Assembly: GCA_947567595.1 (NCBI GenBank)
Contig: CANOMQ010000016.1
Span: forward strand, 1-64,000
From: an uncultured Lachnospiraceae bacterium
GTDB taxonomy: Bacteria; Bacillota; Clostridia; Lachnospirales; Lachnospiraceae
Reading direction: 5' to 3'
Length of the DNA: 64,000 nucleotides
The notes beneath the pieces are model-generated. The model had not been told where the DNA came from and did no database searches. It was given only the letters and a program-made list of their open reading frames with translations. Below are positions 31,540 through 34,929 of the stretch, piece after piece (the stretch's first letter is position 1; each line of letters begins with the position of its first letter). The position numbers were made by a program, and so were the translations under genes.

Positions 31540-32286
31540 ATGGGATTAGAAACAGATGAAAAGGTAGTCAATTATATACGGAAAATGGTTGCGCAGGCAA
31601 GAAGTGTCGTGGCAGTGCTTGGTATTGAAATGCTGGTGGAGGGCGGTGGCTACGACCTTGATACAAATGAGGAGACCTACAGGGTAGAGGAGCTTTACGG
31701 TTACACGCCGGAGGATATGCTTTCCACTAGTTTTTTTAACGCGAAGGTGGAGCGGTTTTTCCGCTTTTATAAGAATGAAATCCTGACGATGGAGGTAAAT
31801 GCGACGCCTGCGTATGACGCGCTTTTAAAGCTGCAGGCGCAGGGGAAGCTCTCGGCGGTCATCTGTCAGAACTTTCACGGCATTCCGCATGGTATTCGGT
31901 TTCACAAAACGATTGAGCTGAACGGGAATATCAATTCGAACAAATGTCCGCACTGCAACAAGCTGTTTGATTTGAATTACATGAAAAACGCGGCAGGCAT
32001 TCCGCTTTGTGACAATTGCAAAAAGACGGCGGTCAGACCGAATATCCGCCTGCTTGGCGAGCGCGTGAACGCAAAGCTGATGACGGAGGCGGCGAATGTC
32101 TGCGAGGCAGCAGATGTGCTGCTGATTATGGGAAAGGACATGTATAATGACCGGCTCGAATATAATACGGATCCCAGCCGCAGCCAGTTAAAAATCCTGT
32201 TTTCGCGGGAGCAGCAGCTATCGGAGCGGAAGGTCGATTTTGTCATACATGATGAGATACAACTGTTTTTACCTGCTATCGTCTAG
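31540..32286 (+). CDS. divergent Sir2-like protein lacking the catalytic His
   Basis: 248 aa. The sirtuin frame is recognisable: ATPAYDALLKLQAQGKLSAVICQNFHGIPH (equivalent of the TQNIDGLH region), TIELNGNINSNKCPHC and C-D-N-C (four-Cys zinc site intact), then RPNIRLLGE. However, the GAGxS NAD loop has become VLGIEMLVEGGG, Asp of QNxD is His, and the catalytic His of the ELHG segment is Asn128. NAD-dependent deacylation is therefore unlikely. Possible roles are a peptide- or nucleotide-binding regulator. The next gene also encodes a catalytically degenerate enzyme. GGGACGG is the weak ribosome site. Confidence 0.8.
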   Translation: MGLETDEKVVNYIRKMVAQARSVVAVLGIEMLVEGGGYDLDTNEETYRVEELYGYTPEDMLSTSFFNAKVERFFRFYKNEILTMEVNATPAYDALLKLQAQGKLSAVICQNFHGIPHGIRFHKTIELNGNINSNKCPHCNKLFDLNYMKNAAGIPLCDNCKKTAVRPNIRLLGERVNAKLMTEAANVCEAADVLLIMGKDMYNDRLEYNTDPSRSQLKILFSREQQLSERKVDFVIHDEIQLFLPAIV

Positions 32287-32377: not shown

Positions 32378-34375
32378 ATGAGAAAACTAAGAATCAAGAA
32401 CGGACATCCTTATCCATTGGGCGCCTCCCTGAACGCGGACGGCAGCATTAATTTCTCAATGGTGAACAATACGAATGAAGAATGCGGGATTATCCTTTAC
32501 CGCAAGGGAGTGGAGCAGAAGGAACGGATTTTATTTGACAAAAGGCATCGGGTAGGAAATATTTTCTGTGCCCTGATAGAAGGGATTGACAGTACGCGTT
32601 ATGAGTACAACTTTTTCATAGGGGAGAGGGTGCTTGTGGATACGTATGCGAAGCGTATTGTCGGAAATGAGAAATGGCGGGGCGGTGAGTTTAAGCGCCC
32701 GTTTTTGCGTGGAAGCTTTTATAATCATGTGTTTGACTGGCAGGGTACGGAGCGCCTTTGCATTCCGTATAGCGAGAGCATTGTGTATTGTCTGAACGTG
32801 CGCAGCTTTACAAGGCACGCTTCGTCGAAGGTAAAGCACAAGGGAACGTTTGCCGGAATGGTGGAAAAGCTTCCTTATCTGAAGGAGCTTGGCATTAACG
32901 CGGTGGAGCTTATGCCGGCGTATGAGTTTGAAGAGTGCGAGTGGGAGAACGTGCCGGACACTGCCGTGACGCACACGATTGAGTATCAGGTGGAGCATAT
33001 CGACGCCAAGATTGAGGCGGACGAAGAGCCTGTGCGTGCAAAGCGGATTAACTGCTGGGGCTATAAGGAGGCATTTTATTTCGCGCCGAAGGCGTCCTTT
33101 GCGGCGGGCGACGACGCGGTGACGGAGTTTAAGGAGATGGTGCGGGAATTCCACAAAAACGGTATTGAGGTCATCATGCAGTTTTATTTCCCGACGAACA
33201 TCAAACAGGGATATATTTTGGAGATTTTAAAGCACTGGGTACTGGAGTATCAGATAGACGGGTTTCATTTAAAGGGCGAGCGTGTGCCTGCGACGCTGAT
33301 TGCGACGGAGCCGCTTTTTGCGACCACGAAGCTGATGTGTCAGGATTTCAGGCTTTCGGAGATTTATCATGGCACGGACGGGGCGGCCTGCAAGAACCTT
33401 GCCTATTACAGGGACGAGTTTATGTATGACATGCGCAAGTATTTGAAGGGCGATTACGGAATGCTCAAAAGCTTCCAGTACCATATGCGCAATTACCATA
33501 CAAGGTGCGGTATTATCAATTACATGGCAAATTATTATGGCTTTACGCTTGCGGACCTTGTTTCGTATGAGACAAAGCACAACGAGGCAAACGGCGAGGA
33601 CAATATGGACGGCGCCGAGCAGAATTATAGCTGGAACTGCGGCGCGGAAGGCCCTTCACGCAAGAAGGCAATCAATCGGCTGCGGCATACACAGATGAAA
33701 AACGCGTTAAGCTTCCTGTTTTTGGCGCAGGGAACGCCGCTCATTATGGCGGGCGATGAATTTGGAAACAGTCAGAATGGAAATAACAACTGTTATTGTC
33801 AGGATAACGAGACGGGCTGGGTTGACTGGCGCGGTCTTGTGAAGAATGCGGATATCCATGCGTATGTGAAGGAGCTGATTGCGTTCCGGCGCGTACATCC
33901 GATGGTACATTTTGATGCGGTGATGTCCATGCTTGACCGTTTTGGTCATGGGTATCCCGATTTGTCCTATCATGGCGAGGAGGCGTGGAAGGTTCAGCTC
34001 AACGACAACAACCGGCATATCGGCATTATGTACTGCGGACATGCGGCGGACAAGGAGAGTGCGGATTACATCTACATCGCCAGCAACATGCACTGGAATT
34101 CGCACCGTTTTGCACTGCCGTCCATTGCAAACTATGAGTGGGTGAAGGCGGTTGAGACGACGGAAAACATGCTTGTGACGGACTATGAGAAAAATACGGG
34201 CTATATTGACATTTCACCAAGAAGTGTTGCGGTGCTTGTCGGGAAAAAGCTTCCGGAGCCTGCGCCTGCAAAGAAAAGCCCGAAAAAGACAGCCGGAAAA
34301 AAGCCAGACGGGAAACGCAAGCAGGAAGGTCAGGCAAAAAATCAGATGGATTGTGAGAAGGATAAACAGGAGTGA
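32378..34375 (+). CDS. GH13 debranching-enzyme-like protein lacking all three catalytic acids
   Basis: 665 aa resembling GlgX/isoamylase: an N-terminal CBM48-like beta domain (about 1-120), a GH13 barrel and a C-terminal beta domain. Fold landmarks are clear (YCLNVRSFTRHASS; FTLADLVSYETKHNEANGEDNMDG; LFLAQGTPLIMAGDEFGNSQNGNNNCYCQD). The nucleophile Asp of GFRFD is Lys299 (GFHLK), the acid Glu of AEPWD is Gln322 (CQDFR), and the third Asp of TAHDG is Tyr387 (NYYG). Region I is also altered (MQFYFPTN). The enzyme should be inactive; glycan binding or regulation is possible. A Lys/Pro-rich tail of about 40 residues ends the protein. Confidence 0.85.
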   Translation: MRKLRIKNGHPYPLGASLNADGSINFSMVNNTNEECGIILYRKGVEQKERILFDKRHRVGNIFCALIEGIDSTRYEYNFFIGERVLVDTYAKRIVGNEKWRGGEFKRPFLRGSFYNHVFDWQGTERLCIPYSESIVYCLNVRSFTRHASSKVKHKGTFAGMVEKLPYLKELGINAVELMPAYEFEECEWENVPDTAVTHTIEYQVEHIDAKIEADEEPVRAKRINCWGYKEAFYFAPKASFAAGDDAVTEFKEMVREFHKNGIEVIMQFYFPTNIKQGYILEILKHWVLEYQIDGFHLKGERVPATLIATEPLFATTKLMCQDFRLSEIYHGTDGAACKNLAYYRDEFMYDMRKYLKGDYGMLKSFQYHMRNYHTRCGIINYMANYYGFTLADLVSYETKHNEANGEDNMDGAEQNYSWNCGAEGPSRKKAINRLRHTQMKNALSFLFLAQGTPLIMAGDEFGNSQNGNNNCYCQDNETGWVDWRGLVKNADIHAYVKELIAFRRVHPMVHFDAVMSMLDRFGHGYPDLSYHGEEAWKVQLNDNNRHIGIMYCGHAADKESADYIYIASNMHWNSHRFALPSIANYEWVKAVETTENMLVTDYEKNTGYIDISPRSVAVLVGKKLPEPAPAKKSPKKTAGKKPDGKRKQEGQAKNQMDCEKDKQE

Positions 34376-34929
34376 AGGTTTGGAAGCATTTTAAAACAAT
34401 TACAGAGCATAAAATCATGGTGATGAAGGGCTGCTTTTCGGTGGGATTGTACCGTCAGGGGCTGCTGCATGATTTGTCAAAATATATGCCGAGCGAGTTT
34501 TTGGTGGGCGCGCGCTATTATCAGGGGACGCAGAGCCCAAACAATGCGGAGCGTCTTGACAAAGGGTATTCGTCGGCGTGGCTCCATCACAAGGGCAGGA
34601 ATAAGCACCATTATGAATACTGGATGGATTACAGCTCGAAGCGGGGTGCGGGGATTATTCCCGCAAAAATGCCGCTGCGGTATGTCGTGGAGATGTTTAT
34701 GGACCGTGTGGCGGCGTCGAAGAATTATAACAAGGGCAGGTATACGGACGCGCTGCCGTTGAAATATTACCGGAGCGGGAACGCGGCTAAGTTTATGCAC
34801 GAGGATACGAGAAGGCTTTTGGAGCGGCTGCTTGTCATGCTCTCCAAGAAGGGTGAGCGCTATACCGTGCGTTATATCCGCAAAAAAATAATTCCGCAAA
34901 TCTGGTTGGAAGAGCGTCATAAACTGTAA
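34372..34929 (+). CDS. DUF5662 family protein (HD-like)
   Basis: 185 aa; GTG start overlapping the stop of the GH13-like gene by 4 bases (GTGA), so translation is coupled. Basic protein with RQGLLHDLSKYMPSEF near the N-terminus (His-Asp pair), WLHHKGRNKHHYEYW and YVVEMFMDRVAASKNY, the arrangement of the DUF5662 family, distantly like HD hydrolases with their His/Asp metal ligands. No function is established. Its coupling to two degenerate enzymes makes the trio a candidate functional unit. A terminator follows. Confidence 0.85.
   Translation: MKVWKHFKTITEHKIMVMKGCFSVGLYRQGLLHDLSKYMPSEFLVGARYYQGTQSPNNAERLDKGYSSAWLHHKGRNKHHYEYWMDYSSKRGAGIIPAKMPLRYVVEMFMDRVAASKNYNKGRYTDALPLKYYRSGNAAKFMHEDTRRLLERLLVMLSKKGERYTVRYIRKKIIPQIWLEERHKL

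Follow-up and report, generated by a model that had tools for sequence, protein, structure and literature searches.

An isoamylase-type protein common in Lachnospiraceae lacks the GH13 catalytic residues and may serve as a non-cutting glycogen factor

Why would a bacterium keep a full-length protein of the glycogen debranching type whose catalytic residues are gone? The question is raised by a gene, here called the pseudo-isoamylase (pseudo-GlgX) gene, in a window of 64,000 nucleotides from an uncultured Lachnospiraceae bacterium (the whole stretch of DNA that was analysed). The preliminary description of this gene, made from the sequence alone, had read it as a GH13 debranching-enzyme fold with all three catalytic carboxylates replaced, under selection for a non-catalytic role. 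The features discussed below are collected in Table 1.

The identity of the protein as a GH13 member of the isoamylase/GlgX type was upheld by the searches. The protein matched the Pfam alpha-amylase family (7.4e-11) and the NCBIfam GlgX model TIGR02100 (E 1.4e-92), the latter with 311 bits, which is less than half of the curated cut-off of 640.9 and does not reach it. The closest solved relative was Chlamydomonas ISA1 (1.7e-75), the isoamylase fold was found over the full length, and the best structural matches included chains of the rice ISA1-ISA2 complex. No signal peptide was seen by eye. As had been described, the reading frame showed neither a stop nor a frameshift. Meanwhile, none of the residues that define GlgX/isoamylase catalysis (Asp/Glu/Asp and the D..NH of region I) was present in the window protein.

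Table 1. Features of the pseudo-isoamylase gene and its downstream neighbour (positions in the window)
Feature	Position	Strand	Remark
Pseudo-isoamylase (pseudo-GlgX) CDS	32378..34375	+	ATG start, 665 aa
Former catalytic region I, residues 268-273	33179..33196	+	QFYFPT for DVVFNH in the alignment with the own GlgX
Former region II/nucleophile slot, residues 293-299	33254..33274	+	IDGFHLK for VDGFRFD; slot without Asp
Former region III (acid/base), residues 318-326	33329..33355	+	GlgX Glu390 = Gln322
Former region IV (transition-state Asp), residues 379-390	33512..33547	+	GlgX Asp463 = Tyr387
Retained border-lobe loop HNEANGEDNMDG...SWNCGAEG, residues 400-425	33575..33652	+	N402 77/77, E407 77/77, W419 72/77
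Retained GDEFGNSQNGNNNCYCQDN segment, residues 459-477	33752..33808	+	D460, E461, N469, N471 each 77/77
Lys-rich C-terminal tail, residues 640-665	34295..34372	+	Low model confidence, pLDDT under 50
DUF5662 gene	34372..34929	+	GTG start overlaps pseudo-isoamylase stop (GTGA)

The catalytic positions were located by reference to the intact GlgX encoded in the same genome (L005). In this alignment, the acid/base Glu fell on Gln322, the transition-state Asp on Tyr387 and region I on a segment without its motif, just as had been proposed. The proposed replacement of the nucleophile by Lys299 stood only in part. The Asp is indeed absent, but Lys299 fills its slot only if the sequences are aligned without a gap, and the family alignment opens a gap at this point, since the Asp-bearing loop has been shortened. 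For this reason, "loop lost" is a more exact wording than "Asp replaced by Lys".

For the comparison with relatives, 110 loci were classified, namely the best 30 from matches in 172 of the 200 genomes of the bacterial family and the best 80 of the 593 confirmed in a scan of named genomes. They were sorted by the nucleophile column: 77 loci were without Asp and 33 were intact, and the latter together with the own GlgX gave 34 active proteins. The absence of the nucleophile from all 77 therefore holds by construction and is no proof alone. The D, N and H of region I were together complete in none of these 77 listed relatives, and each of the three was present in all 34 active proteins. The acid/base Glu was found in 14 of the 77 versus 34 of 34, the transition-state Asp in 17 versus 33 of 34 (the remaining active protein being gapped), and the two residues occurred together in a single listed relative (L052). 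The loop that bears the nucleophile (GlgX 352-372) had 5-6 residues in the 77 versus 20 in the active enzymes, and the stretch following region I (GlgX 284-336) had 7-8 versus 49-53; both loops of the catalytic face were short in every one of the 77. The shortening of the second stretch means that the fold outside the active site, which had been called well kept, is so only partly.

It had also been expected that orthologues would carry the same Lys/Gln/Tyr substitutions. This did not hold for the family, in which the shared trait is the loss and the replacing residues vary. The 77 listed relatives have mainly Asn (18), Met (16) or Lys (10) in the ungapped nucleophile slot, Tyr (15), Glu (14) or Asp (11) in the acid/base column and Asn (29), Asp (17) or Tyr (12) in the transition-state column, and the protein of the sister species (L010, genome G196) carries Glu in the acid/base column. 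Such free variation speaks against new chemistry. As far as the alignments can tell, the cutting site is dismantled through loop loss.

A fold of this kind could conceivably still act on branched glucans via other residues. The Glu and Asp that persist at the old sites in a minority of the listed relatives would agree with this, as would L182 (genome G005), a family member outside the 77 that has an Asp in the ungapped slot (IDGFVLDEW) and has lost regions I and III. However, the slots vary freely, and only L052 combines the Glu with the Asp, with region I incomplete there as elsewhere. Nor was a relocated carboxylate triad, such as would have spoken for activity, seen in the sequence columns of the 77. 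In 16 columns, 90% or more of the 77 carried Asp or Glu, and in 15 of these columns the majority of the 34 active proteins did so as well; the one that differed, D520, stands in a column that is mostly gapped in the active enzymes and is situated past the GDE and GNNN segments. We consider catalysis by other residues highly improbable, even with the gap in debranching enzymes that it would fill in some carriers (see below). L182 belongs to a group of shorter relatives of 559-630 aa (L050, L051, L055, L094, L179-L183 and L185) with a different region II, in which most of region III is gone and the border-lobe motifs are mostly intact.

In a quick, unrooted tree, one branch (SH-aLRT 100) separated the 77 listed dead forms from the 34 active proteins, and the split, judged by SH-aLRT only, persisted when the catalytic columns were removed. 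Most of the named members on the dead side were Lachnospiraceae, and a few bore the label Clostridiaceae, Eubacteriaceae, Bacillota or simply "bacterium"; the active side spanned several phyla. In a class-wide draw, the dead form was present in 8 of the 10 genomes of the own family; outside the family, 6 of 281 genomes had a match at 1e-20, and all six kept the nucleophile Asp. Since active relatives are spread over several phyla and the dead form was seen in a single family (Lachnospiraceae, by the named relatives), the ancestor was probably an active enzyme of the debranching type.

Between the pseudo-isoamylase and its sister-species counterpart L010, dN was 0.162 and dS 1.50, giving a dN/dS of about 0.11, which is rough as dS exceeds 1; the corresponding values for GlgX were 0.071 and 1.67. 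Purifying selection on the pseudo-isoamylase is clear, and it is weaker than on GlgX. At 177 positions, the identity among the 34 active proteins is 94% or higher. The residue is shared by 90% or more of the 77 listed relatives at 62 of these positions, by less than 20% at 58 and by an intermediate fraction at 57. Together with the intact frame and the presence of the gene in an estimated 161 of 200 genomes, these values bear out the earlier proposal: there is good support for selection, as opposed to decay, on a role in which the GH13 catalytic residues are dispensable. A pseudogene was ruled out by the open frame, the dN/dS ratio and the retention of the gene across the family.

The retained positions are unevenly spread. 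The active-enzyme consensus was retained at 0.00-0.30 in GlgX residues 281-440 against 0.92-0.96 in residues 481-560, and the latter block and its start hold the motifs HNE.NGE..DG and GNNN.YC. Residues of the Streptomyces venezuelae GlgX and the maize ISA1 were mapped onto the family by motif and spacing, without a printed chain alignment. According to passages of PMC9530166, Arg212, Glu470, Asn534 and Tyr536 of the S. venezuelae GlgX contact outer sugars of acarbose; the last three map to E407 (Glu in all 77 listed relatives), N471 (Asn in all 77) and residue 473 (Tyr in 74, Trp in 3). Two further acarbose contacts named there, W222 and Y224, map to positions that are Trp and Tyr/Phe, respectively, in 77 of 77. 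The contacts H271, E378, W380 and H449 from the same passages are not kept as such, with His at the H449 position in 24 and Trp at the W380 position in 11 of the 77. In maize ISA1, passages of PMC12510319 name N561, W578 and N628 as border-lobe residues, with W578 said to contact glucan at SBS2. With the same spacing of 17 and 50 residues, they map to N402, W419 and N469; W419, at the position of the plant glucan contact, is Ser or Phe in the five listed relatives that lack it. It should be noted that most of the retained border-lobe residues are equally conserved in the active enzymes, so they could be structural, and their conservation does not point to a glucan role in particular.

In the monomer model, which was built from 29 sequences, pLDDT was under 50 for residues 397-416 and 420-424. 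The poor modelling of this invariant loop may be due to the shallow alignment or may hint at a needed ligand or partner. The outer-contact column at residue 483 of the own GlgX showed Glu in all 77 dead forms and Glu (18), Trp (15) or Tyr (1) among the 34 active proteins, which perhaps marks a difference in specificity among bacterial GlgX enzymes.

The estimate of 161 carriers combines 150 genomes with a best match at 3.2e-83 or better, 31 of them checked by motif, with 11 of 14 intermediate genomes checked by motif; three of these 11 hold the N-terminal part only and one (L187) is divergent. In the class search, no active GlgX matched the same query better than at 1.8e-68. GlgX itself was counted by hand, fragments included, in 59 of the 200 genomes: 56 had both proteins, 105 the pseudo-isoamylase only, 3 GlgX only and 36 neither. 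Co-occurrence thus exceeded expectation (Fisher odds ratio 6.4, p 0.0007, from hand-typed lists and with kinship ignored). The search for debranching enzymes covered GlgX, type I pullulanase and GDE_C. Type I pullulanase was over the cut-off in 49 of 200 genomes and strong GDE_C (E 1e-54 or better; the over-cut-off tally is 59) in 38, and neither was associated with the pseudo-isoamylase. When the three families were pooled, 86 genomes had the pseudo-isoamylase and a debrancher, 75 the pseudo-isoamylase only, 11 a debrancher only and 28 neither (odds ratio 2.9, p 0.007, kinship ignored). In 75 of the 161 carriers, therefore, a search for these three families detected none of them, with type I pullulanase judged by the cut-off and GDE_C by a strong match. 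Genomes of this kind include G022, G027, G135 and G177, and 74 of the 75 have the glycogen synthase gene glgA over the cut-off, so that a residual activity on branched glucans would find a gap to fill there.

These counts bear on the reading in which the protein is an obligate partner of the ISA2 type, forming a heteromer with active GlgX and tuning it as plant ISA2 does ISA1. The intact GlgX of the host genome, both positive associations and the rice ISA1-ISA2 chains among the best structural matches are in its favour. On the other hand, 105 of the 161 carriers are without a GlgX orthologue at the threshold used, and the 75 just described are without all three families; in the host, a draft genome, GlgX lies on another contig (C8) than the pseudo-isoamylase (C16), and a pairing could exist in the 56 genomes only. 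As the pseudo-isoamylase cannot depend on GlgX in the 105, an obligate partnership is unlikely. Over the whole sample, glgA was above the cut-off in 194 of 200 genomes, and a gene so nearly universal leaves co-occurrence unable to test a glycogen role. Among the 39 genomes estimated to lack the pseudo-isoamylase, 35 have glgA over the cut-off, which indicates that the protein is not needed for glycogen synthesis.

The gene neighbourhood was examined with the window neighbours as queries. A DUF5662 reading frame of 150-230 aa was accepted in 53 of the 77 listed pseudo loci, 30 of which hold at most 1.5 kb of flank, and several further loci end at contig ends. Among 47 named pseudo loci, several of them cut by contig ends, the neighbours were DUF5662 in 28, DUF1292 in 21, UvrD-like in 20, GltX in 19 and Sir2-like in 3. 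No glycogen gene was recognised among the neighbours inspected with these queries. The frequent company of DUF5662 and the overlap of the two genes would suit a protein repurposed without a glucan ligand, with the isoamylase fold serving as a protein-protein platform, for example for the DUF5662 product. The stripped loops of the catalytic face fit such a use, as does the low model confidence of the invariant loop in the monomer, which could mark an interface. However, there are genomes with DUF5662 that lack the pseudo-isoamylase (e.g. G002, G021 and G025), many others have the two genes on separate contigs, and the residues that were kept fall on positions mapped as glucan contacts in active relatives. 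We regard the platform as rather unlikely.

The neighbours deserve a short description. The DUF5662 protein was detected in 167 of the 200 genomes of the family, against none of 14 control genomes; H33, D34, H72, H73, H79, H80 and D111 were invariant in 45 sequences, and the model (pLDDT 93.7) showed a weak structural resemblance to HD-domain hydrolases. No paper was found under the name DUF5662. Upstream of the pseudo-isoamylase, a Sir2-like gene (31540-32286, + strand; Pfam SIR2, 4.5e-18) has LGIEM at the NAD-binding GAGIS, QNFH at QNID and Asn at the catalytic His (ELNGN for ELHGS), the motifs GAGIS, QNID and ELHGS being those that we take as the reference. Among 19 aligned relatives from the bacterial family, GAGIS was degenerate in 14 and the His was kept in 17. 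This protein is possibly a second dead enzyme beside the pseudo-isoamylase.

We return to a glycogen-associated pseudoenzyme of the isoamylase/GlgX type, which we judge the probable explanation: a protein that would hold glycogen via its border lobe and serve, without cutting, as a scaffold, shield or targeting factor. It is a GH13 protein, probably cytosolic, from which the loops bearing the nucleophile and following region I have been removed, and with these loops gone no alpha-1,6 hydrolysis by the GH13 mechanism is expected. Purifying selection has preserved large parts of the N-terminal half, some of the C-terminal domain and the border-lobe segments, in which the putative glucan contacts lie. 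The cell's own glycogen chains would most likely still be held on the border-lobe side, and the protein could in this way influence glycogen build-up or breakdown; where GlgX is present, as in the host, it may also pair with it. Inactivity, glucan binding and role are all inferred. The link to glycogen is indirect, being drawn from the homology, the lack of a signal peptide by eye, the near-universal glgA and the positions mapped to GlgX and ISA1 contacts.

A wider reading is a real possibility that we put forward tentatively. The protein would be a widespread dead isoamylase of single origin in Lachnospiraceae, a border-lobe glycogen binder that organises glycogen architecture or turnover without a canonical debrancher, and thus a counterpart of ISA2 whose catalysis was probably lost independently. 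In maize, removal of ISA2 alters the polyglucan even with ISA1 inactive, and the reason for keeping a non-catalytic isoamylase is called "not understood" in plants (passages of PMC12510319). A bacterial family with a like loss, in many genomes without a recognised debranching partner, would separate a non-catalytic role from the regulation of a partner and would make such a role testable in a simpler cell. If the reading is true, a non-enzymatic glycogen factor is common in gut anaerobes. The label "alpha-amylase" or "GlgX-like" in such anaerobes need not imply debranching activity, and the 75 carriers without the three debranching families call for caution in reading debranching from annotation. 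In the titles, abstract openings and passages of the literature on GH13, isoamylase and GlgX pseudoenzymes and on Lachnospiraceae glycogen, no description of such a protein was found.

Hydrolase folds in other roles are known from 4F2hc and rBAT, which are non-catalytic relatives of starch/amylase enzymes. Like these two and BAM4, the last as given in a reference title, the pseudo-isoamylase is a hydrolase fold that has lost catalysis; their families and cell compartments differ from its own. Compared with bacterial GlgX and isoamylase (GH13_11, TIGR02100; 7u3b, 2wsk, 2vnc), it lacks the nucleophile and region I, and two loops of the catalytic face are nearly gone. With the c-di-GMP-regulated GlgX of S. 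venezuelae, it has the fold in common and keeps the mapped outer contacts; the residues of the c-di-GMP site are absent from TreX, Vnz25270 and E. coli GlgX (passages of PMC9530166). The nearest parallel in kind is plant ISA2 (GH13_11; 9j6x_C, 9xvi_C), in which the catalytic residues are likewise lost and the isoamylase fold is selected beside an active paralogue, according to passages of PMC12510319 and PMC12892837. By sequence, the host too encodes both an active isoamylase-type enzyme and a non-catalytic paralogue of it. However, plant ISA2 is reported in passages of PMC12510319 to keep only SBS1, without the SBS2 sequence, and the pseudo-isoamylase keeps the residues mapped to SBS2/the border lobe, so what was retained differs between the two dead isoamylases. 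In the profile search, ISA2 (1.7e-67) was a far weaker match to the pseudo-isoamylase than ISA1 (8.3e-124). Dead isoamylases are thus a kind already known; what is new here is one that, unlike plant ISA2, is bacterial, has short loops on the catalytic face, is carried by most of the family genomes sampled and usually stands without an active GlgX.
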